From positions 1-20,038 of the IMG/VR virus record IMGVR_UViG_3300042197_002278: a stretch of 20,038 nucleotides of DNA. One strand, given 5' to 3'. The stretch is from a virus. The notes under the pieces were generated by a model. It saw only the letters and a list, made by a program, of their open reading frames with translations. It searched no databases and was not told where the DNA came from. Positions 1 to 19,355 of this stretch are shown here, piece by piece; positions within the stretch are counted from its first letter, which is position 1, and every line of letters begins with the position of its first letter. Position numbers and translations under genes: made by a program.

Positions 1-203
1 AAAATAACCCTGATTGGTATAGTTGGAGAACAGTTAGTAGTGTATGTCAAATGGCAGGCCGTGTGATTCGTTCAGATCAAGATTGGGCTGATACAATAAT
101 AATTGATGCTAATTTTGGAGATTTATTTAGGCATTCTGGTCATCTTTTTCCAAAGTGGTTCACTGATTCAATTAATAAGATAAATATTAAAACTACCGCT
201 TAA
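1..203 (+). CDS. C-terminal end of a DinG/Rad3-type SF2 helicase (5' partial)
   Basis: Read in the frame that starts at base 3, an open frame runs in from the left edge and stops with TAA at 201-203. Its 66 residues include CQMAGRVIRSDQDWADTII, which matches helicase motif VI (Q-x-x-G-R-x-I-R-x-x-x-D) of the Rad3/XPD/DinG group, followed by a D-A-N-F and HLFPKWF ending typical of the last helicase domain. In this family the arginines of motif VI contact ATP and the enzyme unwinds DNA 5' to 3'; that is family knowledge. The Walker motifs and any Fe-S cysteines lie outside the window, so the subtype cannot be fixed. The gene ends convergently with the next gene and overlaps it by 11 bases. Confidence 0.7.
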   Translation, partial: NNPDWYSWRTVSSVCQMAGRVIRSDQDWADTIIIDANFGDLFRHSGHLFPKWFTDSINKINIKTTA

Positions 204-900
204 GTGCGTCAATACACTTTTCTATTGCCTCTATTCCTCGCTTATCAAAACCAAATACTTTTGATTTAGCACTTTTTTGTAGTTCTGGTTGCATATATCG
301 TTCTTTGTCAGATTCTCGTATAGACCATAAATTAACTGCTGCCCATTCGTCATCGGTCATTACAACATCTGATATATCTATACCAGATTGAATATCATTG
401 TGACCACCTCTTTGAAAAACTATTACAAATCTATTTTGTGTTTCTGTGTCGACATCTAATTTTAATTGAACTCCTGTTCTGTGTGTTTCAAGATCTGGAA
501 TATAAACTTCAGTGTCGAATTCATAGAATGTTAAATCTAAATGTTTTTCTACATATTTTTTAAAGTCTTCGAATGATTCTACATTCTTATTTGGTGAACT
601 TGAATTTAAATCTTTATATTTTATATAAAATCTACACATTGGAATTCCATTGATAAATCCTGTATAAATATGAAATTTATCATTTATGATTTCATATCCT
701 AAAGATAGTATTCTTTTATTCAAATTTAGTACATCCTCAATAAATTTTACTCTATCTATATTGTCTTTACTCTCAGCGCTTACATGTATTGAGCCTTCGT
801 ATTCATCATATCCGACTTCAAAATCATCATCTTTGAAATCTAAGAGCATTGCTTCAATTTGTTGAGTATTAACTGATTCATTAAATCTTTTTATTCTCAT
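193..900 (-). CDS. Hypothetical protein with capsid-targeting-like N-terminus
   Basis: This 235-residue protein has no family I recognise. It starts with MRIKRFNES, the same style (basic residue at 2-3, Phe near 6, Glu near 8) as several other proteins here and as T4 internal head proteins such as IPIII (MKTYQEFIAE). The body is mixed charged and hydrophobic, with no membrane segment or signal peptide. An acidic N-terminal third (residues 20-45) is followed by what look like alternating beta strands. The start ATG at 898-900 lies three bases after an AATATATAAT box on the same strand, and an intrinsic terminator separates it from the gene upstream (951-1400). The stop overlaps the end of the helicase fragment on the other strand. 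A role as a virion or internal head protein is only an inference from the N-terminus. Confidence 0.75.
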   Translation of the reverse strand: MRIKRFNESVNTQQIEAMLLDFKDDDFEVGYDEYEGSIHVSAESKDNIDRVKFIEDVLNLNKRILSLGYEIINDKFHIYTGFINGIPMCRFYIKYKDLNSSSPNKNVESFEDFKKYVEKHLDLTFYEFDTEVYIPDLETHRTGVQLKLDVDTETQNRFVIVFQRGGHNDIQSGIDISDVVMTDDEWAAVNLWSIRESDKERYMQPELQKSAKSKVFGFDKRGIEAIEKCIDALKR

Positions 901-903
901 AAT

Positions 904-913
904 ATTATATATT
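904..913 (-). promoter_or_regulatory. AATATATAAT box before the 193-900 gene
   Basis: Exact copy of the recurrent 10-base box, three bases before the ATG at 900. It may be a -10-like promoter element or a translation-initiation element. Confidence 0.45.
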
Positions 914-921
914 AAAACAAA

Positions 922-945
922 AAACCCACTTTAAAAAGTGGGTTT
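922..945 (-). terminator. Intrinsic terminator after the 951-1400 gene
   Basis: A perfect 10-base inverted repeat (AAACCCACTT / AAGTGGGTTT) with a 4-base loop. Read on the minus strand it is followed by a T-rich run (TTTTGTTTT). It lies 5 bases past the stop of the 951-1400 gene, so it ends that transcript before the 193-900 gene. A weaker T-rich tail on the plus strand could also make it work in the other direction. Confidence 0.85.
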
Positions 946-950
946 AATTT

Positions 951-1400
951 TTATTTCTTTTTAGCTTTAGCTTCTCTTGCTGCTTTAGATATTGGTTCTT
1001 TTTTATCACCATCTTTATCTAAATCTGGAAAATCTGGTTTGAAATTTTTCTTTTTATCAGTAGTTTTGCTTGACTTTTTCTTTTTATCTAAATAAGCTCT
1101 AAGTCCTGCTGGGATTTTTTTCTTCTCATAAGCATCCATTGTTGAATCTGAACTACCCATCATAGTAGGATCATCTTCTTCTGGATTATCAAAATCATCT
1201 TCTTTCATTCTTCCTCTTACAACATCACCTAAGTCATGTTCTGGTCGGAATTCAGTCTTTTTTGTATAATCAATTGATGGTCTTCCAGTATCATGTGGAT
1301 TTCTACCAGCAACTAAAGAACGCAAGCCTTCTTGGTCTTTGTTTTCTTCTTCAACATCTGGTGGTAGATAGAAGTTTTCAAATTTACGTAAGTGTTTCAT
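951..1400 (-). CDS. Small charged, disordered protein with D-x-D-x-D-G-D motif; likely virion-associated
   Basis: This 149-residue protein is mostly charged and low in hydrophobic residues, so it is probably disordered. It opens with MKHLRKFENF, the shared capsid-targeting-like start. The middle is acidic (EDDFDNPEEDD). Near residue 100 it has IPAGLRAYLDKKKK, and the tail carries FPDLDKDGDKKEPISKA followed by an AKAKKK end. The D-L-D-K-D-G-D stretch resembles one calcium-binding loop of the EF-hand/dockerin type. From memory, similar lysine-rich tails with this loop occur in other large-phage hypothetical proteins; I could not search for this. The gene has an exact AATATATAAT box 19 bases before its ATG and a strong terminator after it, so it is probably its own transcript. 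The function is unknown. Confidence 0.75.
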   Translation of the reverse strand: MKHLRKFENFYLPPDVEEENKDQEGLRSLVAGRNPHDTGRPSIDYTKKTEFRPEHDLGDVVRGRMKEDDFDNPEEDDPTMMGSSDSTMDAYEKKKIPAGLRAYLDKKKKSSKTTDKKKNFKPDFPDLDKDGDKKEPISKAAREAKAKKK

Positions 1401-1419
1401 ATAAAATTTTTTTATTTTA

Positions 1420-1429
1420 ATTATATATT
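1420..1429 (-). promoter_or_regulatory. AATATATAAT box before the 951-1400 gene
   Basis: Exact copy of the recurrent box on the minus strand, 19 bases before the ATG at 1400. This spacing would allow a normal short leader if the box is a promoter. Confidence 0.45.
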
Positions 1430-1456
1430 AAAACATTTTTTCAAATTATTGATTTT

Positions 1457-1466
1457 TATATATAAT
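1457..1466 (+). promoter_or_regulatory. TATATATAAT box before the 1470-2648 gene
   Basis: One mismatch from the recurrent AATATATAAT box; it ends three bases before the ATG at 1470. With the box at 1420-1429 it forms a divergent control region between two genes. Confidence 0.4.
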
Positions 1467-1469
1467 TAG

Positions 1470-2648
1470 ATGAAAATTTTTAACTTTTTTGATTTTATTT
1501 TTGAAAAATATAAACCAATTTTAGTACCATTTCAATTTTCTACTGATTTTGAGAATGTTATTAAACAAATTGATAGTCCAATATCTAATGATCTAATTGA
1601 CATGCGCCTACAACCTTCTGAAATATCATTAGTGAATATAGGTTTATCAAATGATGATGCTACTTTTATAACATCAACAAAGTTATCACAACATTTTAGT
1701 ACAGAAGACGATAGAATTTTATCAACACTTATAAAACCTTTAACAAGAGTCACTGAAATATATTTCAAAAATAAAACAGATATCAAAATAGGTAGATTAG
1801 TTAGGAAATTATTTGGTAATAAATTTACAGATCAACAAATTGAAAAATTTGTTAATCAATATAAATCTATATTAGATTCTAAATCCTTGAATTTTGTAAT
1901 ACTTAGTGGATATTCTATAATACAGGCTTATACTTCTGATTATTATACTCAAGATGCACCGAAAGTTAATCCTCTATATAATTCTTGTATGAATGATCAA
2001 TCACATTTGATTGAATTTTATAACTATGTTCCGGTCAGACTTTTAACATTATGTAATTCTGAAAACGATATTTTTGGAAGAGCATTACTTTGGAACACCG
2101 ATAAGGGTGTATTTATGGATCGTGTCTATGTTGCAAATGATCAAGATTATTTTAAATTTATAGATTATGCTAAAAAGAATAATTTTATTTATAAATGGGA
2201 AAACAAAAGTGGGGATAAAATTTTGTATGTTAAAGGTGGAACTACGACTTGGTTTCCAATGAAGGTTAAATTGAATTTTAACATATCGGAATATAACTTG
2301 TGTGAATGGGATCGTGTGCCAAAAGATATTCCATACATGGATACTTTTGTTTTTGGTCACCAAAATTATTTACAAAACTATGAGCCAAGTGGTGATAGAT
2401 ACTACATCTTAACTCAAACAGAAGGAGAAGTTATAGAAATAGTAGTACAGTATGACATATATGGTCAAAGAATTGAACAAGATCAGTCACAAAATTATGA
2501 ATGGTCTGTAACACAAGATGGTTGGATACATACATCACAGTGTCAGTGGATAGAATGTATGAATGATTATTTATCATTTGATTATTTAAAAGACCCAAAA
2601 AATGGTTTTGTTTTACAAGATGGCAAGTGGATTAAAATAAAGAATTAA
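1470..2648 (+). CDS. Paralogous phage family protein with NSCM / GRALLW / MDRVY motifs (short member)
   Basis: The 392-residue product is a paralogue of the 781-residue protein encoded at 3498-5843. Shared landmarks in order are IGRLVRK (107-113), NQYKS (129-133), NSCM (171-174), GRALLW (203-208), MDRVY (216-220) and PYMDTF (288-293). The last 90 residues are rich in Trp, Tyr and acidic residues, in a W-x(n)-C/D-x(n)-W pattern that hints at small repeated units. The N-terminus MKIFNFFDFIFEK is like a T4 capsid-targeting peptide and contains I-F-E, which fits the T4 prohead protease rule (Ile/Leu-x-Glu). I recognise the motif set as recurring in hypothetical proteins of large phages but know no proven function. 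It leads a three-gene unit, with the next gene 10 bases downstream. The conserved Cys172 could be structural or catalytic; nothing here decides. Confidence 0.8.
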   Translation: MKIFNFFDFIFEKYKPILVPFQFSTDFENVIKQIDSPISNDLIDMRLQPSEISLVNIGLSNDDATFITSTKLSQHFSTEDDRILSTLIKPLTRVTEIYFKNKTDIKIGRLVRKLFGNKFTDQQIEKFVNQYKSILDSKSLNFVILSGYSIIQAYTSDYYTQDAPKVNPLYNSCMNDQSHLIEFYNYVPVRLLTLCNSENDIFGRALLWNTDKGVFMDRVYVANDQDYFKFIDYAKKNNFIYKWENKSGDKILYVKGGTTTWFPMKVKLNFNISEYNLCEWDRVPKDIPYMDTFVFGHQNYLQNYEPSGDRYYILTQTEGEVIEIVVQYDIYGQRIEQDQSQNYEWSVTQDGWIHTSQCQWIECMNDYLSFDYLKDPKNGFVLQDGKWIKIKN

Positions 2649-2656
2649 TATATAAG
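2647..2656 (+). promoter_or_regulatory. AATATATAAG box before the 2659-3501 gene
   Basis: One mismatch from the recurrent box. It straddles the end of the upstream gene (stop at 2646-2648) and ends two bases before the GTG start, so it may drive or help start the second gene of the unit. Confidence 0.35.
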
Positions 2657-2658: not shown

Positions 2659-3501
2659 GTGAAAATTTTAACTTATAAACAACATAAATTAGCAGACGAA
2701 TTTTGTGAGATGATTTCTAATCCAATTATTAATGAATCTGATGAAACAAATACTGTAGTACAAGGTATTTTAAATAAACTACACCGTGATTTAAAATTTA
2801 ATTGGAGTTTAGTATTTACTTTTGGAATAGGTGTTAAAGTTATGATTCCAATTGTAGATAAATTAATAAAAAATGGAAATATCAAAGTAGATTGTAATTT
2901 AGAAAATTTGGTATTAGTTTCCTTAGCGGCACTTACAATAACTTATTTAAAAGAAACTAAAAATAATACGGGTGATGCAAAAACTACTTGTGGTTGTGAA
3001 AATATTGACCCAGATTGTGAAATTTGCCAAGGCACTGGTATGATTGATAGTGTTGTCACTAAATCAGATGCTAGAACATTATTAGAAGAACTTAAACTTC
3101 GTGGTATAGGTAATGGAATTATACAAAAATTAGTAGAGTGTTTCAAATTTTTTGGAAGCTTATTAAAACCACTTTTTACAAATCTACCTAAAATTGTAAC
3201 TGGTTTAATTGATATGTTGGCTTATACTTCCATATTATTACCAACTATGAATGCAATTTTGGGCATTATAGGTAAATATGATTTAACAATTGATACTTTG
3301 ATTGGAAATGCTACTGCTATAGCACTTGGTATATCCGCATTTTTGACCAAGTATGGATTTGAATATTTAGCAACTAAATTTAAAGACAAGTTTGGATTTC
3401 AAACGACTGATCTTGATAAACCAGGTATTGTGAGTAATGTTGATATTATAGATACCGAAGAAGATAATTTAAGTGGCACAAAACTAATTAAAGAACAATG
3501 A
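2659..3501 (+). CDS. Multi-spanning membrane protein with a CxC...CxxCxG cluster
   Basis: This 280-residue protein starts at GTG, which gives MKILTYKQHKLADEF. Hydrophobic segments lie near residues 47-68 and 83-97, and again near 179-204 and 211-230, so two pairs of membrane helices are likely. Between the pairs is CGCENIDPDCEICQGTG (residues 112-128), four cysteines whose second half (C-x-x-C-x-G-x-G) looks like a DnaJ-type zinc knuckle. The C-terminus is charged and ends in IKEQ. Its stop overlaps the next gene's start as ATGA (3498-3501), so the two are probably translated in a coupled way. The gene lies between two paralogues, which suggests a shared job. I do not recognise the family; a holin is possible but not supported by size or by the zinc-knuckle-like insert. 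Confidence 0.75.
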   Translation: MKILTYKQHKLADEFCEMISNPIINESDETNTVVQGILNKLHRDLKFNWSLVFTFGIGVKVMIPIVDKLIKNGNIKVDCNLENLVLVSLAALTITYLKETKNNTGDAKTTCGCENIDPDCEICQGTGMIDSVVTKSDARTLLEELKLRGIGNGIIQKLVECFKFFGSLLKPLFTNLPKIVTGLIDMLAYTSILLPTMNAILGIIGKYDLTIDTLIGNATAIALGISAFLTKYGFEYLATKFKDKFGFQTTDLDKPGIVSNVDIIDTEEDNLSGTKLIKEQ

Positions 3502-5843
3502 TAAAAAAATATTTTGATTTTAGATCTTTTTTTCTTCTTGAATCTTTACTTAAAGTTGATAAAGACTTGCATGTTATTTTAAGTAAGATCTCTGATAAAG
3601 ACCCTGTTGCCAAAATGCTAGTTGGTTTAATTAATCAAGATATTACAACAAATGTAAATTACTTGAAATCATCTGATAAAAATGATGATATTAAATTTGT
3701 TAATGATACTCAAGTAAGTAGGTTTATTGATGCTGATATTGATCCATTTGAAAGAGCTGCAAATACTGCAAAAATTGGCAGAACTATTAGACAAATTTTA
3801 ACACTTAACAAAATTTCAGTCACGGATTCTCAAATTGAACAGTTTGTTAATTCTTATAAAAGTGCTTGGGATATCAAAAATAAAAAAGGTGGATTTCAAT
3901 TAGTTTCAGGTGATGAAATTAAACATTGGTACTTAGAAGATAATTATGTTGGAGGCGGTGGCCAGTTAAACAATTCTTGTATGAGATATGATACTTGTTA
4001 TAATTTTTTTGATATTTATATCAAAAATCCAGATGTGTGTCAATTATTAATTATGCTTGATGATAGGAATAAACTATTGGGAAGAGCACTCGTTTGGAAA
4101 TTAATGCCTGGAACTGGTAAATCTGAATATTTTTTAGATAGAATTTATACAAGATTTGATAGTGATATTTATAAGTTTGAAGATTGGTTTAGAAACTATC
4201 TAAAAATTTCAGAAGATGATGATTTCAGCGGACATATTTTAGGAATTACACAAGGATGTAAAGTTCAATTAAAAAACTGGAAATTTAAATTTTATCCATA
4301 TATGGATTCACTTTATATTCTTGATTATGAAACAGGAATTTTAGGAACTTATGATAGTAAAGATAATAAAAAACTTCAATTCATTCTACAACAAACTGGT
4401 GGATTACCAAGTGTACCTGGTTATGTTTACTCAAAAAAGTATGACAAGTGGTATAAGAATGATCAGTGTGTTTATTTTAATGATCAAGATGACTACTTTC
4501 CACTTGAAGATTGTAAAAAAGATTATTTAGGAACTTGGAGACTTAAAGATGAAGTAGTTTATTCTGAATACTTAAAAGATTGGGTGTATTCTAAACGAGC
4601 TGTAGAATTAACAGGTTTCGGAATTGTTGATGAAGTGGACATAATTTTCGTATATGATGATGTTGATGAGGTTGGTAATCCAAAAAATTCAAAAAAAAAT
4701 TTAAAATCAAAAATTGAAGACTCTGATTATAAAAAAGTTGAAGTAGGTTGGAGAGATTTTTGGATCAAGTCAAACCATCTTGTATATGATCCATTTAACT
4801 CACAGTGGTTACTTAATACAAAGCAACTAAAAAAAGACTTTACAAAGTTGCAAAGAATTGACCACCGTAATTTTTTAAAACTTCGAAATATTTTTGGACC
4901 ATTAGATCAAGAAGTAGTTTATTTTAAATCTTTTGGTATTTCCGATTCATATACAATACTACCAATTATTTTTGATTTCACTCATGGTAAAATAAAAGAA
5001 GATGAAGGTGATTACTATTTTATTATTGATAGTCTTGTAAAATCTTTTAAATTAGAGGATTTAGTAGAAAAAGATAATAAGATATTTTTTCTCAATAATA
5101 TTGATTTAGATAAGGGATTTAAAAAAATGTGCTATAGTCATTCAGTACAAATTTTTAATAAAATAGCTAAAAATAAAAATGTAGATATTAAAGAATATTT
5201 AGATTTTTTACAAGAAGTAAATTCACGACTTTTAATTAGCTCGAAACATTATAAAAATTTAAATCTAAACTATGATAAAATGATTGAACATGCATCATAT
5301 TTAAAATTTTATAATACTGAAATCGCCGAAAAATTTGAAGAATTAAAAGTTTTAGAAATTTTACAAAGTGATAAATTTATTGATCATTTTATAGATTGGG
5401 TTTCAAGTTCTGAATCTCGGTTTGAATTCACTGAAAATTATAGAGAACCCGATGAAGAAGTGATTGAAATTTCTAAAGATGTTACGGACTTAAAATCAAA
5501 AGTTAAGAGGTTTTTCAAATCTTGTAGAGATCAAATTCTTTTTGTTGGATACTGGTATGTAATTATATGTGATATGGATGATGTTATTGAAAGATATAAT
5601 AATTGGGCTAAAAAATTATCATCTGTGAATACTAATTTACTTAGAGTTATTAACCTTAGAGAACGAGTTGGATCTGATTATGCGAGTAGTATTCTAAGTT
5701 TATCTGAATTTTTTGAATATTTAGATATAGATAATATATTCAAGGAATTTAATACTAAGACTGGGAGGTATTTTCATGAGTTTGAACATGATGCTCAAAT
5801 TTTCAATGATTTTATACAAAGATTAGATAAACGCAAACAATAA
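3498..5843 (+). CDS. Paralogous phage family protein with NNSCMR / GRALVW / LDRIY motifs (long member)
   Basis: This 781-residue protein shares its first 275 residues with the 1470-2648 product: KIGRTIR (92-98), NSYKS (118-122), NNSCMR (158-163), GRALVW (195-200), LDRIY (213-217) and PYMDS (267-271). Residues about 305-445 contain imperfect repeats of the form Y-x-x-x-x-D-x-W-x-x-x-x-x-x-V/C-Y (for example YSKKYDKWYKNDQCVY and YSEYLKDWVYSKRAVE). The rest is Lys/Glu-rich and probably helical up to the end (DKRKQ). It starts MIKKYFDFRSFFLLES; L-L-E then Ser would fit cleavage by a T4-type prohead protease. Translation is probably coupled to the preceding membrane protein through ATGA. No transmembrane segment is evident. 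I infer a virion or head-related protein, with low certainty about the role. Confidence 0.8.
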   Translation: MIKKYFDFRSFFLLESLLKVDKDLHVILSKISDKDPVAKMLVGLINQDITTNVNYLKSSDKNDDIKFVNDTQVSRFIDADIDPFERAANTAKIGRTIRQILTLNKISVTDSQIEQFVNSYKSAWDIKNKKGGFQLVSGDEIKHWYLEDNYVGGGGQLNNSCMRYDTCYNFFDIYIKNPDVCQLLIMLDDRNKLLGRALVWKLMPGTGKSEYFLDRIYTRFDSDIYKFEDWFRNYLKISEDDDFSGHILGITQGCKVQLKNWKFKFYPYMDSLYILDYETGILGTYDSKDNKKLQFILQQTGGLPSVPGYVYSKKYDKWYKNDQCVYFNDQDDYFPLEDCKKDYLGTWRLKDEVVYSEYLKDWVYSKRAVELTGFGIVDEVDIIFVYDDVDEVGNPKNSKKNLKSKIEDSDYKKVEVGWRDFWIKSNHLVYDPFNSQWLLNTKQLKKDFTKLQRIDHRNFLKLRNIFGPLDQEVVYFKSFGISDSYTILPIIFDFTHGKIKEDEGDYYFIIDSLVKSFKLEDLVEKDNKIFFLNNIDLDKGFKKMCYSHSVQIFNKIAKNKNVDIKEYLDFLQEVNSRLLISSKHYKNLNLNYDKMIEHASYLKFYNTEIAEKFEELKVLEILQSDKFIDHFIDWVSSSESRFEFTENYREPDEEVIEISKDVTDLKSKVKRFFKSCRDQILFVGYWYVIICDMDDVIERYNNWAKKLSSVNTNLLRVINLRERVGSDYASSILSLSEFFEYLDIDNIFKEFNTKTGRYFHEFEHDAQIFNDFIQRLDKRKQ

Positions 5844-5879: not shown

Positions 5880-7208
5880 ATGACTTCATCACTCGAAAAA
5901 GTGTTTTTTAACTACATTCTAAAGAATAAAAAGTATTACGAAATAGTTCGTCCTTTTTTTTTCAAGAATACTGAAATACAATTTGTATTTGGTGTAATAC
6001 GAGATTATATCTTAAAAAATACAGATGCTCAATTACCAACAGCCAGACAAATCTGGGAAATGATATCACTTGTAGATAAAGAAGGTGTTATTACTAAAGA
6101 AGTTCTAAAATCATTACTTACAGATAATTTAAAAGAATATGATGAAAAAAATTTCATAGAACCTAAATTTAATGCATGGGTTTTGGCCAATAGGATAAAA
6201 GCCGGTACTGTTGATATCATAGACGAAACTAGAAGCTTTGATAATATATCTGACTTTGATATTGCAATAGAACGAGCAAATAAAATTCGTTCAATTGTGG
6301 ATGAAATGTCTTCAACTAATTTTATAGATGATGATGACTTAGGATCTGATTTTGATGAGCCTGAGTTACACGTTCAAGACAGTTCGAGATTTAAAGTAAA
6401 ATCAGGCTTTGAAACACTTGACCATATATTAGGTGGTGGATGGGATATTGGTACTTTAAATTGTATTATGGCAATGACAAACGCGGGTAAATCAGTTTGG
6501 ATGCAGAACTTTTCAGTGAAGTCAGCTGATTTGGGGTATAATGTTCTTTATATAACTCTTGAAATGAGTGAGAGAAAGGTTTTAAAAAGACTTGGTTCAA
6601 TGAGACTCAAAATACCAATTAATGATTATGATAATATTAGTAAAGATGTTGAGATAGTGAAGAAAAAGATAAAGGCACTTGGATCTATGAAAGAAGGCGC
6701 TGATTTATTTACAAATAAAGTTGGTAAAATCTATACAAAATTCTGGGCTGCTGGAACCGCAACAATAAACGATTTTGATAATTATATTCAAAAGATTAAT
6801 CAAAAAAAGGGCGTCAAATTTGATCTGATTGTAGTTGATTATATAACATTAGTGGCCTCACCAAAAGGTCAAAATGATTCATTATATACACGTGGAAAAC
6901 ATCTAGCAGAAGGATTGAGAGCTCTTGGATCAAAGTATAAATGTCCTATAATAACCGCTGTACAAGTTTCAAAAGATGCTTGGAATGCATCCGATATAAC
7001 ATTAGAGAGTGTTCCTGAAAGTAAAGGAATTCCAGAGACCGCGGATACTTTTTTTTGTATAATTCGAACAGAGGAAATGCGCCGTCTTAATAAATATCGA
7101 TTTAAATTATTAAAACAAAGAGATGGTGATTTTTTAAGATCTCAGATTAAAGTTGATCTTAATCCAACATTTCTAACATTAGAGAATGATCAATTTATAG
7201 ATTCTTAA
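5880..7208 (+). CDS. Replicative DNA helicase, DnaB / T4 gp41 type
   Basis: This 442-residue protein is close in length to T4 gp41 (475). An N-terminal helical domain (1-145) is followed by a RecA-like core. The core has a Walker A variant AMTNAGKS (198-205, Lys204), TLEMSERKVLKRL (226-238) as seen in DnaB-family motif 1a, Walker B LIVVDY (316-321), a polar motif 3 AVQVSKDAW (360-368, Gln362) and a C-terminal KLLKQRDGD (409-417) that fits the DnaB arginine-finger region. In this family six subunits encircle the lagging-strand template and move 5' to 3', and they interact with primase. The acidic linker DDDLGSDFDEPE (151-162) is unusual but sits in the flexible joint. No intein or frameshift is seen. 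The 114 bases after it carry two small hairpins. Confidence 0.93.
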   Translation: MTSSLEKVFFNYILKNKKYYEIVRPFFFKNTEIQFVFGVIRDYILKNTDAQLPTARQIWEMISLVDKEGVITKEVLKSLLTDNLKEYDEKNFIEPKFNAWVLANRIKAGTVDIIDETRSFDNISDFDIAIERANKIRSIVDEMSSTNFIDDDDLGSDFDEPELHVQDSSRFKVKSGFETLDHILGGGWDIGTLNCIMAMTNAGKSVWMQNFSVKSADLGYNVLYITLEMSERKVLKRLGSMRLKIPINDYDNISKDVEIVKKKIKALGSMKEGADLFTNKVGKIYTKFWAAGTATINDFDNYIQKINQKKGVKFDLIVVDYITLVASPKGQNDSLYTRGKHLAEGLRALGSKYKCPIITAVQVSKDAWNASDITLESVPESKGIPETADTFFCIIRTEEMRRLNKYRFKLLKQRDGDFLRSQIKVDLNPTFLTLENDQFIDS

Positions 7209-10686: not shown

Positions 10687-12756
10687 ATGTTATTAAGTGA
10701 TGTAATTAAAATAGAAATAACTAATAAAAATTTAAAATACTATCAACGTTCAAATAAGGATTTGAATATTGGTAGTATTATTTTTATTCCATTAGATGAA
10801 TTAAGCAGTAATTCTGGGTTAAAAGTAGATGTTAAATGTGATTATTGTGGTATTGAATTCAAGATGGAATACCGTAAATATTTAAGGAGTGTGAGAATAA
10901 TTAATAAGAATTCTTGTAAAAGTGTAGATTGTTCAAGTTTAAAAGTAAAAGAATCTAATAGTGAAAAATATGGTGTTGAAAATGTAATGCAATTGGCTGA
11001 AAATATAGATAAAGCTAGACAAACCAATCTAGAAAAATGGGGAGTTGATCATCCAATGCAGCTAAAAGAAATTAAAGATAAAATCAAAAATACAAATCTT
11101 ATCAAATATGGAACTGAAAATCCCATGCAGTTGGATGAATTTAAAAATAAAGTAAAGAAGACTAACTTGATTAAATATGGTTCTGAGAGTCCTATGCAAT
11201 TAGATGAATTCAAAAATAAGGCAAAAAAAACAAATTTGAAAAGGTATGGTGTAGAGAATTATACTCATACTGATGAGTATAAGGTCAAATCTAAAAAAAC
11301 CAATTTAGAAAAATATGGAGTTGATAATTATACAAAAACAGAAGAATGTCAAACAAAAATTAAAAAAACCAATCTAGAAAAATATGGCTTTGAGTATTTA
11401 TTTCAATCAAAGGAATTTAGAGATTTGATTAAAAGCTCAAATTTAGATAAATTTGGAGTTGAATACTACTCACAAACAGATGAGTTTTTAGAAAAAATAA
11501 AAAAAACTTGTTTGGAGAGGTTTGGATTTGAAAATCCGATGAAATCTGATGATATAAAAGAAAAATTAAAAAACTCTTTTCTTGAAAAGTATGGTGTTGA
11601 TAATCCAAATAAACTAGATTATATAAGAGAAAAAATAAAAAACACAAATTTTAAAAATTTTGGATTTCAATTTCCCACACAATCACCAACAATAAAAGAA
11701 AAAATAAAAAACACAAATCTGAAGAATTATGGTGTCACAAATATAATGTACAGTGAAGAATTCAGAAAACAAAATTTTATAATTTCAAATCATTCCAACT
11801 ATTTAAAGTTTTTAACTGAAGATAAAACTAATGAATTTAAGTGTGATTGTGGTGAATCTCATAACTTCAGAATACTTGCTGATAACTTTTACAAAAGATT
11901 GGATTCAAATCTTCCACTCTGTACTGTATGTTATCCTATTAGTGATTCGCGATCAATTAAAGAAGAAGAATTATATAAATTTATTCAATGTGTTTATGAT
12001 GGTGAAATTATACAATCCCATCGTGATAAGTTTGAGATTGATATTTATCTACCACAAATAAATTTAGGATTTGAATTCAATGGATTAAGGTGGCATTCAA
12101 ATGTATATCGTGAAAATGATTATCATCTACAAAAAACCAATTATTTCAAAGAAAAGGGTATCAGAATAATTCATATTTGGGAAGATGATTTTGACTTTAA
12201 AAAAGATATTATTAATAGTCAAATAAAAAATATGTTAAACAAAACAGAAAGTAAAATTTATGCCAGAAAGTGTGTGGTTAAAGAAATGAAATCAGTTAAT
12301 GATTTTTTAGAAAAAAATCACATACAGGGTGCAGTTAGAAGTGTTATAAAATTAGGGTTGTACCATGATAGCGAATTGATATCAGTGATGACATTTGATC
12401 AATTTGAAGGTCGGAAAAAAATGAATATTGGTGAATGGAACTTAAATAGATTCTGTTCTAAATTAAATACTACTGTGATTGGTGGTGCTTCTAAACTATT
12501 ACATTTTTTTATTAATAAATATAATCCAAATAGAATCATTTCATATGCTGATGCAGATTGGAGTGTAGGAAATTTGTATGATTCTTTAAAATTTAATAAA
12601 ATATGGGAATCTAAACCAGACTATAAATATGTTGTTGGTGGTAAACGAATTCATAAATCTAATTTTAGAAAATCAGTAACTAAAATCAGTGAATCTAAAC
12701 TAAATCTGCCTAAAGTTTATGATTGTGGTAAAATTAAATTTGAAAGAATTATTTAA
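10687..12756 (+). CDS. Homing-type endonuclease with 12 DNA-binding-like 23-residue repeats and a Vsr/EDxHD-like nuclease domain
   Basis: The 689 residues divide as follows. Residues 1-91 hold a zinc-site candidate (Cys51, Cys54, Cys77, Cys82). Residues 92-364 are twelve 23-residue repeats of the form LEKYGVDNPMQ-x-D-E-F-K-x-K-x-KKTN. A second cysteine set follows (CDCG 386-389, CTVC 412-415). Then comes a nuclease-like region with FEIDIYLP (Asp452), LGFEFNGLRWHS (Glu463, His470) and GIRIIHIWEDDF, similar to Vsr-like PD-(D/E)xK homing enzymes of the EDxHD kind. The C-terminal 180 residues (NRFCSKLN, GGASKLL, ISYADADWS) form a domain often fused to such phage nucleases and possibly GNAT-like. 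The place right after nrdA suggests that nrdA is or was the target. The stop shares TTAA with the convergent gene at 12753. Activity is untested; the fold assignment is from motifs only. Confidence 0.8.
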   Translation: MLLSDVIKIEITNKNLKYYQRSNKDLNIGSIIFIPLDELSSNSGLKVDVKCDYCGIEFKMEYRKYLRSVRIINKNSCKSVDCSSLKVKESNSEKYGVENVMQLAENIDKARQTNLEKWGVDHPMQLKEIKDKIKNTNLIKYGTENPMQLDEFKNKVKKTNLIKYGSESPMQLDEFKNKAKKTNLKRYGVENYTHTDEYKVKSKKTNLEKYGVDNYTKTEECQTKIKKTNLEKYGFEYLFQSKEFRDLIKSSNLDKFGVEYYSQTDEFLEKIKKTCLERFGFENPMKSDDIKEKLKNSFLEKYGVDNPNKLDYIREKIKNTNFKNFGFQFPTQSPTIKEKIKNTNLKNYGVTNIMYSEEFRKQNFIISNHSNYLKFLTEDKTNEFKCDCGESHNFRILADNFYKRLDSNLPLCTVCYPISDSRSIKEEELYKFIQCVYDGEIIQSHRDKFEIDIYLPQINLGFEFNGLRWHSNVYRENDYHLQKTNYFKEKGIRIIHIWEDDFDFKKDIINSQIKNMLNKTESKIYARKCVVKEMKSVNDFLEKNHIQGAVRSVIKLGLYHDSELISVMTFDQFEGRKKMNIGEWNLNRFCSKLNTTVIGGASKLLHFFINKYNPNRIISYADADWSVGNLYDSLKFNKIWESKPDYKYVVGGKRIHKSNFRKSVTKISESKLNLPKVYDCGKIKFERII
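10960..11778 (+). repeat. Twelve tandem 69-base (23-codon) coding repeats
   Basis: The repeats lie wholly inside the endonuclease gene. The protein periodicity is exact (23 residues, the last copy about 20), while the DNA has diverged between most copies; copies 3 and 4 are the closest. They are likely DNA-binding modules related to those in phage homing nucleases. Confidence 0.85.
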
Positions 12757-13493
12757 GTATTCTGAGCCTTTTTAATAATTTCAGCTAATTGTTGTTTATC
12801 TGAACTATTCATACGAAAACGATTGCAAAAGGTCTCAAAATCTGAAATTATTGAATCCGGAATCGCAGATAGATATTCATTACCTGGTTTGAATAGATTT
12901 ATGTCTATTGGTTCTGAAATATTAATGAAGTAATAATTGCTTTCTTTGTTGATCTCTTGATTATTATCTGATAAGTTTTTAATCCAAGATTTTAAAAGTT
13001 TACAAGTTTCACGAACATGTTTTTTAAAATCTACTATTTCTTGTCCAAAAGACATACTATTCCAGTGTTTTGCATCCCATCCCATAGATTTTAGAGTTTT
13101 TACTAAGTTAGTAATCTCGGTAAAAACTTTATTTTCATCAACATCACTTGTAGAAATTCCTATTGTATAAGAAAGTTGCATCTTTGTTGCAATTTCAGTT
13201 TTTGCTAAAAAATTTGTAAAATACTGTTCATCTGATTTTGATAAAGGTTCTTGATTATTCAAATATGAAGTCAAAACTATGTTTTTACCTTGATTTCGGT
13301 TTGACATTTTGTACCACGTATAAATCACACTTTTGTTTACATATTGTGCATTTTGTAGTTCATCACATACATCAGTTGCTAAAACTTTAACCACATCATT
13401 AACTTTATTATATCCAGATGTTTCGGCCAAAAACTTTAAGTTTTCTTGATAATCAGATGAAACTTTTTCATTAATAGAAACTAAATACCTCAT
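12753..13493 (-). CDS. Hypothetical protein, inserted on the opposite strand between endonuclease and methyltransferase
   Basis: The 246-residue product has no family I recognise. I chose the ATG at 13491-13493 (MRYLVSINEK) over an upstream TTG at 13535 because the TTG would lie inside the divergent gene, and because the ATG has the AATATATACT box two bases before it. The sequence looks mostly helical, is mixed in charge, and has no membrane segment or cysteine cluster. Tryptophans occur in pairs (SMGWDAKHWNS, about residues 137-147). It points against all neighbours and ends on a TTAA shared with the endonuclease stop. This placement among a nuclease and an orphan methyltransferase suggests an accessory or transferred cargo gene, but nothing in the sequence names its function. 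Confidence 0.7.
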   Translation of the reverse strand: MRYLVSINEKVSSDYQENLKFLAETSGYNKVNDVVKVLATDVCDELQNAQYVNKSVIYTWYKMSNRNQGKNIVLTSYLNNQEPLSKSDEQYFTNFLAKTEIATKMQLSYTIGISTSDVDENKVFTEITNLVKTLKSMGWDAKHWNSMSFGQEIVDFKKHVRETCKLLKSWIKNLSDNNQEINKESNYYFINISEPIDINLFKPGNEYLSAIPDSIISDFETFCNRFRMNSSDKQQLAEIIKKAQNT

Positions 13494-14315: not shown

Positions 14316-15395
14316 ATGAAACAAATACTTAACACCACAACAGACATTGATTTTACAAATTTACCCTTATTTTTTGGATCAGAATCTCTGGGATTGCAAA
14401 GATATGACAAGTTCAGATACGAAAAGATATTCAATATGTTTAAACAACATATCTCTTATTTCTGGCGACCTGAGGAAGTCAATCTTTCAAAAGATAAAGC
14501 TGATTTTCAATCATTAACCGAGCATGAAAAATTCATTTTTACTAAAAACTTAGGATATCAAATTTTACTTGACTCTGTTCAAAGTCGTGGTATTTCAAAT
14601 CTATTAGAAAACTGTTCTAATCAAGAAGTAGAGTTGTTTTCTAAAACTTGGGAATTTTTTGAAACGATTCACTCGTATTCTTATACTTATATTATAAAGA
14701 ATATTTATGCTAATCCAAGTGAAATTTTTGATAATATTTTAAAAGATGAAGAAATTATCAAAAGAACTACATCAGTTACACATTACTATGATGAATTAAT
14801 TAATTCTATTCCTGATGAATCAGAACATGATAAGAAAAAGAAATTATATTTAACACTTGTTTCAATTAACATACTTGAGGGTATCCGTTTTTATGTATCA
14901 TTTGCTTGTTCGTATTGTTTTGCTCAAAATAAGAAAATGGAAGGAAATGCTAAGATTATTTCACTTATTAACCGTGATGAAAACCTACACATGGGTTTTA
15001 CTTCTTTTTTATTAAAAACTTTAAAAGAAGAATGGTCAGAAGGATTTCAAACTATTGCAAGTGAATGTGAGCCACTTGTGATTAAGATGTATGAAGATGC
15101 TGCTAAAGAAGAACTAGAGTGGGCTGAATACTTATTCAAAGATGGATCAATGATTGGTTTAAATGCTGAGATCTTGACTCAATATATGAAATGGCTTACA
15201 AATAATCGTATGAAGATTATTGGACTCGAGCCTCTTTTTGATAAAATTCAAAATCCTATAAGTTGGATCAATCAGTGGACAGGAGATAGTAGGAGTTTAC
15301 AGGTGGCCCCTCAGGAAAGTCAATTGCAGTCGTACACTATTGGTTCATTTAAACAAGATGTAGATGAGGAATCTTGGGATGAATTTTCCTTCTAA
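14316..15395 (+). CDS. nrdB: Ribonucleoside-diphosphate reductase class Ia, small (beta) subunit
   Basis: NrdB carries the diiron-tyrosyl radical that starts catalysis in NrdA. The 359 residues hold all metal ligands by comparison with E. coli: Asp86 (LLDSVQSRG), Glu116 and His119 with radical Tyr123 (FFETIHSYSY), Glu188 (NILEGIRFY), and Glu222 with His225 (RDENLHMG). The conserved tyrosine shows a standard class Ia enzyme. The C-terminal tail QDVDEESWDEFSF is acidic and ends in aromatic residues, as needed to dock to NrdA. Near the 3' end, 15273-15335 has unusual codons (four of the five Gln codons are CAG; every other Gln codon in the gene is CAA). An endonuclease gene starts 39 bases downstream. 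No intron is present. Confidence 0.97.
   Translation: MKQILNTTTDIDFTNLPLFFGSESLGLQRYDKFRYEKIFNMFKQHISYFWRPEEVNLSKDKADFQSLTEHEKFIFTKNLGYQILLDSVQSRGISNLLENCSNQEVELFSKTWEFFETIHSYSYTYIIKNIYANPSEIFDNILKDEEIIKRTTSVTHYYDELINSIPDESEHDKKKKLYLTLVSINILEGIRFYVSFACSYCFAQNKKMEGNAKIISLINRDENLHMGFTSFLLKTLKEEWSEGFQTIASECEPLVIKMYEDAAKEELEWAEYLFKDGSMIGLNAEILTQYMKWLTNNRMKIIGLEPLFDKIQNPISWINQWTGDSRSLQVAPQESQLQSYTIGSFKQDVDEESWDEFSF
15273..15335 (+). other. Recoded, GC-elevated patch near the 3' end of nrdB
   Basis: It encodes residues 320-340 with the conserved LQVAPQE motif. Gln codons are CAG at 320, 329, 333 and 338 against CAA at all 12 Gln outside the patch. AGG, GCC, GTG and TCG codons also appear. G+C over 70 bases from 15271 is 33 of 70, well above the surroundings. 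Confidence 0.65.
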
Positions 15396-15434: not shown

Positions 15435-17060
15435 ATGTTAGAATTTATAGAAAAGTGTGAAAAGATTCACAAAAATAGATTTGATTACTCACTTGTTGAA
15501 TATAAAAAATCAAAAGAGAAAGTTAAAATTATTTGCAGAGAACATGGTGAGTTTTATAGCTCACCATTAGTTCATTTACGAACAAAATCGGGAGGATGCC
15601 CTAAATGTATAGGATATAAATCAATTGATTATTTTAAAGAACTTTCAAATAAGATTCATAATTTTAAATATGATTATTCTTTAGTTGATATAAGGAATAC
15701 TAGATCTCATGTTAAAATCATTTGTAATAACCATGATGAACCTTTCATATTTAAACAAACTCCTTACTGTCACATAAACCGAAAACAAGGCTGTCCTCTT
15801 TGTGCTGGAAAATATTCTTATGATTATAAAGAGTTTATAAATAAGGCAAATAAGATTCATAATTTTAAATATGATTATAAGTATCTTGAAGAAGATTACA
15901 AAGATAATAAAACGAAAGTAAGAATAGTTTGTAAAGAACATGGAATTTTTATTCAAAGTCCAAACGCTCATCTAATGCCAAGAGGATGTAACACCTGTGC
16001 TAGGCGAGATTTCAAATCAATTGAAAGTTTTATCACGGAATCCAATAAAAAACACAATTCAAAATATGACTATTCAAAAGTTAATTTTGTTTCTGTTAAA
16101 TCTGATGTGATTATAATTTGTCCAAAACACGGTGAATTTGAACAAAATGCTTATAATCATGTTTTAGGATCTGGATGTAGAAAATGTTCAGAGTGTGAGA
16201 AATATACTCAAGAATCTGTTTTGGATAAATTTAAGGAAGTTCATGGTGATAGATATGATTATTCACTAGTCAATTTTAAATCTATAAGAGAAAAGGTAGA
16301 AATTATTTGTAAAAAACATGGTTCTTTTTTACAAGAAGCCTTTTCACACTATCAGAATCAAGGTTGTCCAAAGTGTAAATCTTCTAAAGGAGAAGAAAGA
16401 ATAATGAAGTATTTAATTAGTAATAAAATTCAATATGAATATCAAAAGAAATTTGAAGGATTGAAAAATCAAAAGTATTTACCTATTGATTTTTATTTAC
16501 CGGATTATAATTTATGTATAGAGTATGACGGTAAACAACATTTTCAACCAGTTGAGGTTCGGGGTGGTACAGAGTCATTTGAGATTTTAAAAGAAAATGA
16601 TTCTAAGAAAGCTCACTTTTGTCAAAATATGGGAATAAATTTATTAAGAATTGCTTATTATGATTTTGATAATATTGAAAGTATAATCGGTGAATTTTTG
16701 GGCAATTTGCCAAAAAAACTAATATCCAATTATAGGTTGCCAAAAAAATCGGACAATTTTTCTCAAGTTTTAGACTTATTTGGTAAAACACCTTTAAAGG
16801 TTAAATTAAATGTTAAGCCAAATTGTTTAGAAAATAATTGTCATAATAATGTTGATAAATATGTTGCCATGTATGGTGGAATAAAAATTAGTGGATACTA
16901 TTTGGTTTATGATATTGATTATGAAAGATTAATTGCCATACGTCATTCAATTTGGAAAAATAGTCATGGTGAAGTTATAGATATTACTCCTTTTTCTGAT
17001 GGTAGAAAATGGAACTTATTTATTGAGTCCAATAAAAACGAAACTTATATTAATATATAA
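15435..17060 (+). CDS. Homing-type endonuclease with five zinc-ribbon-like repeats, PD-(D/E)xK core, and an extra C-terminal domain
   Basis: The 541-residue protein begins with five repeats (about 3-58, 66-123, 133-188, 198-251, 262-314) of the form IH-x-x-x-YDYS ... I-I-C-x-x-HG-x-F ... GCPKC, each with cysteines and a histidine that could bind zinc. A nuclease core follows: GEERI (319-323), IDFYLPDYNLCIEYDGKQHF (351-370; Asp352, Glu363, Asp365, His369) and GINLLRIAYYDF. This resembles Vsr-like/DUF559-like PD-(D/E)xK enzymes. Residues about 430-541 form a separate domain with ENNCHNNVDKY (Cys469), AIRHSIW (His504) and GEVIDITPF (Asp516); the Cys-His-Asp order is that of papain/transglutaminase-like folds. 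The gene lies directly after nrdB, so nrdB is the likely target or former target. Nuclease assignment is fairly firm; the last domain is a guess from three motifs. Confidence 0.8.
   Translation: MLEFIEKCEKIHKNRFDYSLVEYKKSKEKVKIICREHGEFYSSPLVHLRTKSGGCPKCIGYKSIDYFKELSNKIHNFKYDYSLVDIRNTRSHVKIICNNHDEPFIFKQTPYCHINRKQGCPLCAGKYSYDYKEFINKANKIHNFKYDYKYLEEDYKDNKTKVRIVCKEHGIFIQSPNAHLMPRGCNTCARRDFKSIESFITESNKKHNSKYDYSKVNFVSVKSDVIIICPKHGEFEQNAYNHVLGSGCRKCSECEKYTQESVLDKFKEVHGDRYDYSLVNFKSIREKVEIICKKHGSFLQEAFSHYQNQGCPKCKSSKGEERIMKYLISNKIQYEYQKKFEGLKNQKYLPIDFYLPDYNLCIEYDGKQHFQPVEVRGGTESFEILKENDSKKAHFCQNMGINLLRIAYYDFDNIESIIGEFLGNLPKKLISNYRLPKKSDNFSQVLDLFGKTPLKVKLNVKPNCLENNCHNNVDKYVAMYGGIKISGYYLVYDIDYERLIAIRHSIWKNSHGEVIDITPFSDGRKWNLFIESNKNETYINI
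15441..16376 (+). repeat. Five coding repeats in the second endonuclease
   Basis: The repeats have a spacing of about 65 residues and conserved Cys, His and YDYS positions. Copies 2 and 3 share a 32-base identical stretch (15646-15677 and 15847-15878), which shows a recent duplication or conversion between these copies. Confidence 0.8.
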
Positions 17061-17061
17061 T
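17052..17061 (+). promoter_or_regulatory. AATATATAAT box before the 17077-18585 gene
   Basis: Exact copy of the recurrent box. It overlaps the end of the second endonuclease gene and lies 15 bases before the ATG at 17077. Confidence 0.45.
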
Positions 17062-17076
17062 ATATTAAAAGAACAA

Positions 17077-18585
17077 ATGGAAAGAAAGATATTACCTTAT
17101 TTAGTCGTTATTTCAGCCTTGTCTGTTTCACTTTCAGCGGCGTTTTATTCAGTTACTGGTCTAGGAAAAATGTTTTCAGGTGCAAGTGTTCAAGTCATGA
17201 TAATGATGACTTCGTTGGAAATTGCAAAGTTAGTTTTAGCATCACTCTTATACCAGTATTGGAGTAGATTAAATAAGGCTTTAAAAACTTACTATTTTGT
17301 TGCTCTTTTTGTTTTAATGTCTATTACATCTGCTGGTATTTATGGTTACTTATCATCTGCTTATTCTGATACTTTGAATAAAGTTGAAATAATAGATAAA
17401 CAAGTAAAAGTCTTAGATACAAAACGTGAGATGTTTCAAACACAACTGAATGATGCCAGAGTTGAAAAAGAAAGATTAAATCAAAATATTGCTGAATTAA
17501 CTAAAGGTGTATCAAACAATTTCATACAAACTAAAGATAAGCAAGGAAATGTTTTGACGACTACTTCTTCTGCAAATAGAAAGGTTTATGAAGAACAGTT
17601 AAAGGTTTCACAAGCCAGAAGAGATGATATATTTCGTCTTGAAACTGTTTTGGGTGACTCCATACGAAATATAGATCTTAAAAAATTAGATTTAGAAACT
17701 AATACAGATGTTGCTGGTGAAGTAGGTCCTTTAAAATATATTTCTAAATTGACAGGTAAAACAATGGACCAAGTAATCAATTGGTTCATTATTGCCTTAA
17801 TGTTAGTGTTTGATCCATTGGCAGTTTCTTTAGTTGTAGGTGCGAATGTAATTTTTCGTGATAAAAAGAAAGAAGAAGAAAAATTAAAACTGAGTAAGGA
17901 AATTGATCAGAAAATAATTCAATTCGAAGAACGAAAATTAGAAGTTGATAAAATTAACGAAGATTTAGATAAAAGAATATTGAATATTGACTTAAAAGAA
18001 ATTGAATCTGTCCAAAGAATTAATCAATTAGAAGAAGATACTAATATACGATTGAGTAATTCAGAAAATGATCTAAATAAAAAAGAAGAAGACATAAAAA
18101 AACTTGAATTGCAAACAATTCAATTCATAGATGATTCAAACAAAAAATTTAAAATTAAAGAAGATACATTTGATTCATTTGTTAAAACTGAGAAAGAAAA
18201 ACTTCAAGATGTTAAGTCTAAGTTAGATCTAAAAGACCAAGATTTGGAAATCAGAGAAAAAAATTATAAAGAGCTTATACTTAAAGAAGAACAAGAATTG
18301 AAGGAGAAATTAAAAATTCAAGCAGATAAGATTAAGTCTGAATGGGAAGATTTGAAAAAACAGAAAAAAGAATTTCAATCATTAAAGAAGAAAATTACAG
18401 AAGAAAAAGAAGATTTAGAGGATTTGAAAGTGCAACTTGACAATAAAAATGAGGATCTTCTTGAAAGAGAAAATATTTTAGAGAAAGTAAAAGAAGAATT
18501 ACTAAATCTTGATTCAGAAATTAAGAGTTGGGAGTCTAAAAATACTAAAATGCGAAGAATGCAACCACCGCCTTCAGCTATTTAA
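17077..18585 (+). CDS. Four-helix membrane protein with a long C-terminal coiled coil
   Basis: The 502-residue product starts at the ATG at 17077 (MERKILPYL). A further upstream in-frame ATG at 16999 lies inside the endonuclease gene and would remove the box-to-start spacing, so I reject it. Membrane helices are at about 7-27, 38-60, 71-93 and 233-260. The segment between helices 3 and 4 (97-205) is a shorter helical, coiled-coil-like region with a Thr/Ser-rich loop (QTKDKQGNVLTTTSS). The fourth helix holds LMLVFDPLAVSLVVGANVIF. Residues 261-495 are almost pure Lys/Glu/Leu coiled coil, ending MRRMQPPPSAI. I recall similar membrane-plus-coil proteins in large marine phages, but their role is unknown to me. 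It may link the inner membrane to cytoplasmic phage structures. The stop shares TTAA with the convergent gene. Confidence 0.8.
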   Translation: MERKILPYLVVISALSVSLSAAFYSVTGLGKMFSGASVQVMIMMTSLEIAKLVLASLLYQYWSRLNKALKTYYFVALFVLMSITSAGIYGYLSSAYSDTLNKVEIIDKQVKVLDTKREMFQTQLNDARVEKERLNQNIAELTKGVSNNFIQTKDKQGNVLTTTSSANRKVYEEQLKVSQARRDDIFRLETVLGDSIRNIDLKKLDLETNTDVAGEVGPLKYISKLTGKTMDQVINWFIIALMLVFDPLAVSLVVGANVIFRDKKKEEEKLKLSKEIDQKIIQFEERKLEVDKINEDLDKRILNIDLKEIESVQRINQLEEDTNIRLSNSENDLNKKEEDIKKLELQTIQFIDDSNKKFKIKEDTFDSFVKTEKEKLQDVKSKLDLKDQDLEIREKNYKELILKEEQELKEKLKIQADKIKSEWEDLKKQKKEFQSLKKKITEEKEDLEDLKVQLDNKNEDLLERENILEKVKEELLNLDSEIKSWESKNTKMRRMQPPPSAI

Positions 18586-19355
18586 TCTTCAAATCCTAAA
18601 GTCATACCACATCCACCTCTTTTATATTCTTCAACAGCACGAAGTATTTCATCTTGGTGTATGAATATGGATTGTTTTTGTGTATCATAATCAGCAATAA
18701 CAATTATTTCATCATCTGATAAAAATCCATACATAATTATATTGTGTTCACTGATGTCCTGTGTGTCTATAAGTCTTTCGGCTTCTTTAACACCTTTACT
18801 TTTGAGTATTTTTACTAATTCATCAAAATGTTTTTTTACAGGATTATTTGATTGTTCAAATTTAGTTCTTGCGTGTTCTAAATCTTTAGTTTCTATTTTT
18901 TGAATTAAGTGTATCCTCCAAGTAAAATCTGAAAATTCTTTCATATTACTACCTGCTCCCCAGAATGGGCACTGTATAATTAAATTGTTTTCTTGTTTTA
19001 GATCTTGAATATCACACAATCTTTTTATTGACTCTTCTGAGATTTTTAAAAGATTTAATTGATCTTTAAGAAAAGATTGGTAATCTATATTGGTTGGAGC
19101 TGATCTTGGTGTTTTACCTGGATGTGCAAAAGACTTAGTAATTTCTATTGAATAGTTAATTAAGGCTCCATAACTTTGTTCAAACATTGTTGAATTAATT
19201 TCTATATCGGCTGCTTCGTCTAATAGATCAGTTAAGTATTGTTTAATAGTTTGATCTGGTAATTTGTATTTGTCTTTTACTTCAAGAAATTCGTCACTTT
19301 CTTGAAAATGAATTGTTAATTTACTTTCAAAAAATTTTTGCCAAGATTTAATCAT
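18582..19355 (-). CDS. Hypothetical protein with capsid-targeting-like N-terminus
   Basis: The 257-residue protein starts MIKSWQKFFESK, again basic-aromatic-Glu as in the other candidate capsid-targeted proteins. The middle is mixed and largely helical (FLKDQLNLLKISEESIKRL). The last 60 residues look like strands (NIIMYGFLSDDEIIVIADYD, then QSIFIHQDEIL) and it ends RGGCGMTLGFED. I recognise no family and see no membrane segment. The start ATG at 19355 is five bases after an AATATATAGT box, and the end overlaps the stop of the coiled-coil gene by a shared TTAA. It lies 21 bases after the stop of the next minus-strand gene (stop at 19377), so the two may be co-transcribed. A virion role is inferred only from the N-terminus. 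Confidence 0.72.
   Translation of the reverse strand: MIKSWQKFFESKLTIHFQESDEFLEVKDKYKLPDQTIKQYLTDLLDEAADIEINSTMFEQSYGALINYSIEITKSFAHPGKTPRSAPTNIDYQSFLKDQLNLLKISEESIKRLCDIQDLKQENNLIIQCPFWGAGSNMKEFSDFTWRIHLIQKIETKDLEHARTKFEQSNNPVKKHFDELVKILKSKGVKEAERLIDTQDISEHNIIMYGFLSDDEIIVIADYDTQKQSIFIHQDEILRAVEEYKRGGCGMTLGFED

Follow-up and report, generated by a model that had tools for sequence, protein, structure and literature searches.

The majority of genes in huge phages have yet to be assigned a function. In phage T4 the internal proteins IPI, IPII and IPIII and the protein Alt carry a short N-terminal capsid-targeting sequence (CTS) (PMC9026906, PMC3012670); residues 4 and 7 of this peptide serve in targeting and residues 8 and 10 in processing, and the protease gp21 cuts after L/I-x-E (PMC9026906). 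In the giant phage SPN3US cleavage affects eight of the about 50 head proteins (PMC5694885). The stretch of DNA considered here, the 20,038-base virus record IMGVR_UViG_3300042197_002278 (the window), is a fragment of a Bacteroidetes-type huge phage without head genes, and several of its products share a short N-terminal peptide (the tag). Analysis of the window and its relatives leads us to interpret this shared start as a T4-like CTS used on an unusually large scale, with a probability of about 0.83.

The DnaB-like helicase of the window shares 72% identity with its counterparts in two uncultured phages, LR756502 (642 kb; W01 hereafter) and LR745206 (634 kb; W02), 43% with that of a 735-kb phage and 31% with that of a 462-kb phage (W05). 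Complete genomes of 634, 636, 642 and 735 kb belong to the Mahaphage clade, for which Bacteroidetes hosts are predicted (Al-Shayeb et al. 2020, PMC7162821). The nearest complete genomes of the window match these sizes, which are those of the largest phages of that paper, and a shared N-terminal tag is not mentioned in the text of it that was searched. As a fragment the window contains no head genes; its complete relatives W01, W02 and LR756504 (W04) and nearly all of W05 were therefore used for the genome-wide test, with genes from a simple codon-score caller. A strict definition of the tag was applied to the genome-wide counts and a loose one (a tag-like start) to the homologs of the tagged window proteins.

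The strict tag is present on 125 of the 825 predicted proteins of W01, which otherwise possess unrelated bodies, and a listing of near misses suggests that the true number is nearer 160. The corresponding null expectations are 4.4 from internal methionines, 23 (maximum 35) from a block shuffle that preserves the lysine-rich start and 24 (maximum 37) from a column shuffle. W02 and W04, with 102/844 and 47/776 strict tags respectively, also lie above their nulls. The tag is basic and hydrophobic, follows the pattern M-K/R-x-hydrophobic-K-x-aromatic-...-E and occurs in W01 in sub-forms such as MKHLKKYNES, MKHLKTYKIFES and MKIKNYIQFIKES. A long sub-form (class B) typifies 31 W01 proteins, against 5-8 expected. 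W05 uses the version MKYIxxYxxF[L/I]xE, close to MKTYQEFIAE of T4, and has 27 proteins of the long sub-form against 1-5 expected, an excess that appears only with the pattern read from the W05 genome itself. In a control with a T4-type pattern, the 226 genes called in T4 yielded the two MKTYQEFIAE proteins, a further CTS-like start (MKTFKEFIKED) and one doubtful match. Lys, Ile and Phe are common in a W01-type genome, and AT-rich phage genes might by chance have lysine-rich N-termini that merely look alike; this explanation is rejected as having a negligible probability, given that the W01 count exceeds the composition-preserving nulls about five-fold and the internal-methionine expectation about 28-fold, and that orthologs conserve the tag. 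In the Lak phage MK250024 (Lak-B5) a different recurrent N-terminus, LYESIMKSVSKSVKKSINE, was observed outside the tag definition (e.g. at record positions 227676 and 231476), and may be the head-targeting leader of that phage.

To judge from sequence comparisons, the conserved entity is the peptide and not the underlying DNA. Among proteins sharing the start MKHLKx, the upstream DNA shows an identity of 0.34-0.36, against 0.36 for random pairs, residues 13-40 are only 8-10% identical, and the synonymous codons vary with some bias. The random-level upstream identity and the varied codons rule out a recently copied DNA cassette; a ribosome-binding-site origin of the conserved start was likewise discarded, as the upstream regions are AT-rich with no Shine-Dalgarno peak. 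A more general version of this idea holds that the start is a nucleotide-level device, namely a cassette of promoter and translation start disseminated by recombination, in which the peptide itself plays no part. The biased first codons (AAA at codon 2 and CAC preferred for His) and the proximity of a promoter motif to many starts (see below) fit such a device, but besides the above comparisons, the distance from the start to the [hydrophobic]-x-E-S end varies and the logic of the peptide is preserved with other residues in distant lineages, making it very improbable. The predicted end of the tag falls at residues 7-16 and forms a gp21-like [I/L/F/Y]-x-E site, with Ser as the next residue in 45/125 cases, versus 7.7% after E generally; the presence of I, F, Y or L at P3 is partly imposed by the tag definition. 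By sequence, a gp21-type L/I-x-E site is present once P3 is widened to I/L/F/Y, with the family of the product at 951 as the exception. In structure models of the 1470 and 193 products of the window (Table 1) the tag is detached and poorly modelled, whereas the bodies are mostly folded.

The head proteins of the relatives provide a potential partner for this peptide. A gp23-type major capsid protein was recovered above the Pfam cut-off in 9/9 records searched, and matches to the S77 protease in 9/9 at about E 1e-4 or better, mostly below the family cut-off. In W01, W02, W04 and G003 the gp21-type protease constitutes the N-terminus of a protein of about 700 amino acids (aa), the middle of which comprises about a dozen YSEYIAENLDKNI-type repeats. 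Each repeat has an I/L-A-E, i.e. a gp21-type site, and in an example such as YSEYIAEN the segment YSEYIAE is close to the targeting peptide YQEFIAE of T4. The capsid proteins of W01, W02 and G003 also have a conserved INENAY at the N-terminus, which by analogy would lie where T4 gp23 loses its propeptide.

Alternatively, the destination to which the tag directs proteins might be not the prohead core but another phage structure, such as a membrane, the baseplate or a replication compartment. The localization is indeed inferred, a basic, hydrophobic peptide could bind membranes, and one tagged family (that of the 2659 product) looks membrane-embedded. However, the tag, with a gp21-type site at its end, is similar to the T4 CTS as well as to the scaffold repeats of the phage itself, and transmembrane-like segments are rare in tagged proteins (2.4% vs 5.3%). 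The cultured Sphingomonas phage PAU (NC_019521), with a capsid protein 25.6% identical to that of W01 over 99%, points in the same direction: 18 of its 269 proteins start with MKTLxxLYE or similar, several then with KLNE[AS], most are encoded beside head genes, and the tagged proteins in this head gene cluster include gp142 and gp154, annotated as internal capsid proteins, and gp152, annotated as scaffolding. The host of PAU is a Sphingobacterium (PMC3738902). A destination other than the prohead core appears quite improbable. Tenacibaculum phage PTm1 was considered as a second cultured example and set aside, as it has few tag-like starts.

The tagged genes are also distinguished by their promoters, which were compared in genes preceded by 30 or more free bases. 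In W01, 42/57 tagged versus 80/341 untagged genes have AATATATA upstream at no more than about 40-45 bases from the start (p=4e-13), as do 26/35 versus 20/131 of the genes without a W02 homolog. Similarly, ATATATA precedes tagged and untagged genes at 88% versus 35% in W02, 97% versus 23% in W04 and 7/7 versus 20% in W05. Among the untagged genes, those that carry the motif have matches to major head, portal, large terminase, tail fibre and endolysin families, and those lacking it to DNA polymerase, ribonucleotide reductase, helicase, NAMPT and thymidylate kinase. The motif is absent from most replication genes, and AATATATA is therefore read, by association, as a late-type promoter. The possibility that it merely marks short accessory genes was rejected, since the contrast holds without W02 homologs and at 80-250 aa. 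In LR756502 and its relatives, virion and tagged genes are marked by a TTAATATATA motif that frequently sits about 11-15 or 26-35 bases ahead of the start and looks to be the late promoter in such phages.

The bodies that follow the tag are scarcely conserved. Orthologs of the tagged and untagged proteins of W01 were found for 39/125 versus 314/618 in W02, 3/125 versus 136/618 in W04 and 0/125 versus 75/618 in W05, with the tag retained on 36 of the 39 W02 orthologs. A Pfam scan recovered 21 families for 116 tagged proteins, against 74 for 114 length-matched untagged ones. The genome-wide scan, which the preliminary description had proposed as a check, showed that the motif is not equally common on cytoplasmic enzymes: 0/76 proteins conserved with the 462-kb relative are strictly tagged. 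Those tagged proteins that could be recognised include a phage lysozyme, a T4-type RNA ligase, an Acb1/2'-5' ligase-like protein, a methyltransferase, an RNase T-like exonuclease and DHH- or Toprim-like proteins. At the level of sequence the tagged bodies are modular: the RNA ligase is tagged in W01 and untagged in W04, its W04 version starting with the segment that follows the tag, and the family of the 1470 and 3498 products has tagged and untagged members in W01, W02 and W04. A small domain typified by 'DILLDLxDDGFxV' was detected in 87 proteins of LR756502 and LR745206 (the 193-900 product of the window included), of which 74 pass the loose tag definition, a share biased upward by the use of tagged seeds, the 193 product among them. 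This domain mostly lies soon after the tag, and its copies are strongly diverged. Homology of the tagged bodies to the T4 internal proteins was considered and dropped, as there is no family match and the charge is opposite.

Several observations weigh against a CTS function. The strict definition finds no excess in W05 (5/599), the 951 family is without a clear cut site, and the promoter motif is not exclusive to virion genes, as some untagged genes with it match homing or HNH endonucleases. A further exception to the promoter pattern is NrdA, with the upstream motif in 23/39 homologs, unlike NrdB and the helicase. A few tagged proteins are enzymes (the RNA ligase, lysozyme, methyltransferase and DHH/Toprim-like proteins), the tagged bodies are acidic, with a median net charge of -3.8 per 100 aa, versus the basic T4 internal proteins, and more than 100 different cargoes go far beyond the handful of T4. 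Finally, the basis of the 'internal capsid protein' annotations in PAU could not be traced, and packaging and cleavage are inferred in phages that are uncultivated.

The preliminary description had envisaged a set of proteins packaged in the head and injected into the host. Its head-targeting component is supported by the protease-scaffold, the promoter, the conservation of the tag alone, its detached state in the structure models and the annotated internal capsid proteins among the tagged proteins of PAU, while packaging, cleavage and injection remain at the level of a proposed mechanism. Under this mechanism the tagged proteins would be made late in infection together with the capsid proteins, and their basic, hydrophobic N-terminal peptide would associate with a prohead core formed by the gp21-type protease fused to the YSEYIAENLDKNI-repeat scaffold that resembles the tag. 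The shell would then close round the core and the protease would cut after [I/L/F/Y]-x-E, leaving the mature bodies in the head while the scaffold and the tags are shredded. The freed proteins would probably accompany the DNA on its ejection and be active in the next host straight away; their ejection is a plausible purpose by analogy with T4 Alt and IPI* (PMC3012670, PMC9026906).

The main rival for this final step is that the tagged proteins are indeed targeted to the head but function only in assembly, e.g. as core filler or in head-size control, and are not injected effectors. The recurrence of a small module in dozens of tagged proteins, the precedent of T4 gp67, a core protein degraded in the head (PMC9026906), and the acidity of the bodies, unlike that of DNA-bound proteins, are consistent with such a role. 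On the other hand, some tagged proteins are enzymes with host-directed or repair roles (the Acb1/2'-5' ligase-like protein, the T4-type RNA ligase, the lysozyme and the methyltransferase), and the rapid turnover and scarce conservation of the bodies fit cargo shaped by an arms race; we hence regard a purely assembly-related role as rather unlikely, though it deserves serious consideration. A fuller proposal, to which we assign even odds, is that huge phages of Bacteroidetes load considerably more than 100 different proteins (12-20% of their genes) into the head via a peptide code shared with the scaffold repeats, and inject them as a fast-changing arsenal for takeover and counter-defence. The tag would sort 100-160 genes per genome (about one in seven proteins) into a single late-made, head-packaged class with a predicted place and time of action. 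If true, this would account for some of the surplus of genes in huge phages, provide a large pool of candidate injected anti-defence proteins, with Acb1-like and RNA-ligase-like proteins already among them, and offer peptide tags with which to load reporter proteins into capsids of very large size. The results suggest that a group of huge phages may carry a large cargo of helper proteins into infected cells.

In the window the tag marks, by sequence, the five proteins named in the preliminary description, whose quoted N-termini are exact, as well as the 2659-3501 product and perhaps that of 12753-13493 (Table 1). The gp21-like sites noted earlier in two starts are present as I10-F11-E12 in the 1470 product and L13-L14-E15 followed by S in the 3498 product; further such sites are F6-N7-E8 in the 193 product and F8-F9-E10 in the 18582 product, each followed by S, whereas inspection of the tag of the 951 product revealed no clean one. 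The absence of this start from the helicase, NrdA and NrdB, and the paralogy of the 1470 and 3498 products, also stand. By the loose definition, tag-like starts are kept in 7/7 homologs of the 193-900 product, 7/7 of the 951-1400 product, 10/11 of the 18582 family and 41/63 of the shared 1470/3498 family.

Table 1. Coordinates of tagged genes, upstream motifs and untagged contrast genes in the window, and of the protease-scaffold fusion in a relative
Feature	Coordinates	Strand	Remarks
Tagged protein, 235 aa, MRIKRFNE then SVNT	193..900	-	predicted targeting peptide residues 1-8 (window 877-900)
Late-type promoter motif TTTTAATATATAATATT	901..917	-	immediately upstream of 193-900 gene
Tagged acidic protein, 149 aa, MKHLRKFENF...	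951..1400	-	targeting-like peptide without clear L/I-x-E site
Late-type promoter motif AATATATA	1422..1429	-	upstream of 951-1400 gene
ATATATA motif	1458..1464	+	upstream of 1470 gene
Tagged protein, 392 aa, MKIFNFFDFIFE then K	1470..2648	+	tag residues 1-12 (1470-1505), folded body; paralogue of 3498-5843
Tagged protein overlooked earlier, 280 aa, GTG start, MKILTYKQHKLADEFCEMISNPIINE then S	2659..3501	+	longer leader ending I-N-E then S
Tagged protein, 781 aa, MIKKYFDFRSFFLLE then S	3498..5843	+	paralogue of 1470 product; predicted cut between E15 and S16 of L13-L14-E15-S16 (3498-3542)
DnaB-like helicase, contrast gene without tag	5880..7208	+	phrog_19; 0/55 homologs strictly tagged or with AATATATA upstream
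NrdA, contrast gene without tag	8332..10647	+	0/39 homologs strictly tagged; AATATATA upstream of window gene
Possible tagged protein, 246 aa, MRYLVSINE then K	12753..13493	-	AAATATATAC motif upstream; weak, single sequence
NrdB, contrast gene without tag	14316..15395	+	0/11 homologs strictly tagged or with motif
Tagged protein, 257 aa, MIKSWQKFFE then S	18582..19355	-	tag residues 1-10 (19326-19355)
Late-type promoter motif AATATATA	19363..19370	-	upstream of 18582-19355 gene
Protease-scaffold fusion	L088:5272-7371 (LR756502 225272-227371)		orthologs in relatives; tandem YSEYIAENLDKNI-type repeats

In a seven-sequence alignment of the 193-900 product F6, E8 and S9 are invariant, and in its structure model residues 1-9 have a predicted local distance difference test score (pLDDT) below 50, the remainder being mostly folded. 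Its first domain resembles the recurrent 'DILLDLxDDGFxV' module of dozens of other tagged proteins; assignment of a function from PDB matches was dropped, as only weak ferredoxin-like matches were obtained. The 951-1400 product matches phrog_24078 at its C-terminus, and 30/34 members of its hidden Markov model family have a tag-like start, e.g. MKYLKKFENF. In the model of the 1470 product (mean pLDDT 88) tag residues 1-12 lie below 50 except one, and residues 138-264 of the body show weak GNAT-like matches (Foldseek E 0.01 or worse, VIA Z <=7.2), tentatively indicating a GNAT-like domain, too weakly to name a function. The GTG start of 2659-3501 is backed by orthologs beginning MKVLSYKQYQMAEDLANFIANPIINES and similar (MKVLSYKQYQ...NPIINES), with MKIQRYNEH...IITES in W01, and hydrophobic segments suggest that the product is a membrane protein. 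Orthologs of the 3498-5843 product start MIKKYSDFKYFFLFES and MIKKYFDFSFFLLLES, and homologs of the 18582-19355 product start MRIFKWSKFLES, MIKKFHKFFEA and MKLKKYNDFIKES; a search for homologs of the 12753-13493 product found none. The 1470/3498 family displays a conserved SCM...GRAxxW...DRxY core and has 16 matches in the 735-kb phage LR756501. Around NrdA and NrdB, the products of 10687-12756 and 15435-17060, both large, contain motifs that recur within each protein (K-x-x-N-x-x-x-Y-G, and C-x-x-H-G segments) and look like free-standing homing-type endonucleases; the former is related to W01_603993, a member of a set matching a homing endonuclease family. NrdA itself is split in two close relatives (L007:6524 and L010:5614), and the start of the second piece, MLKIK(I/R)ISQ(K/R)KNVGDLTVKDNHNFYANN, resembles the C-terminal portion of an intein that may be a split one.

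As in T4, the tag is a short N-terminus on unrelated, variable bodies, with an L/I-x-E site and a gp23/gp21 head system. The T4 spacing Y4-x-x-F7-I8-x-E10 is matched by MKIFNFFDFIFE of the 1470 product and by MKIKNYIQFIKE, and is kept by the long sub-form; in the short sub-forms (YNES, KIFES) it is reduced to the aromatic residue and x-E. Beyond the number of tagged proteins, the differences from T4 lie in the several sub-forms, the acidic bodies and the fusion of protease and scaffold with CTS-like repeats in the latter; packaging here is a prediction. In phiKZ and SPN3US the head proteins of giant phages are likewise cut after x-x-E by a gp21-type protease and many are delivered to the host, but their propeptides, often of more than 100 residues, share no single short tag and end in A-x-E or S-x-E (PMC5694885); by its end at residues 7-16 with [I/L/F/Y]-x-E the present tag departs from the phiKZ-type inner-body pattern. 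The CTS is of a kind already known; a prior description of this tag, its scale, the tag-like repeats in a fused protease-scaffold or the link to a promoter class was not found in the open-access literature searched, which is not the whole literature. PAU differs in its tag residues, its separate protease and scaffold genes and its 219-kb genome, and as a cultured relative it is a phage in which the idea is testable.

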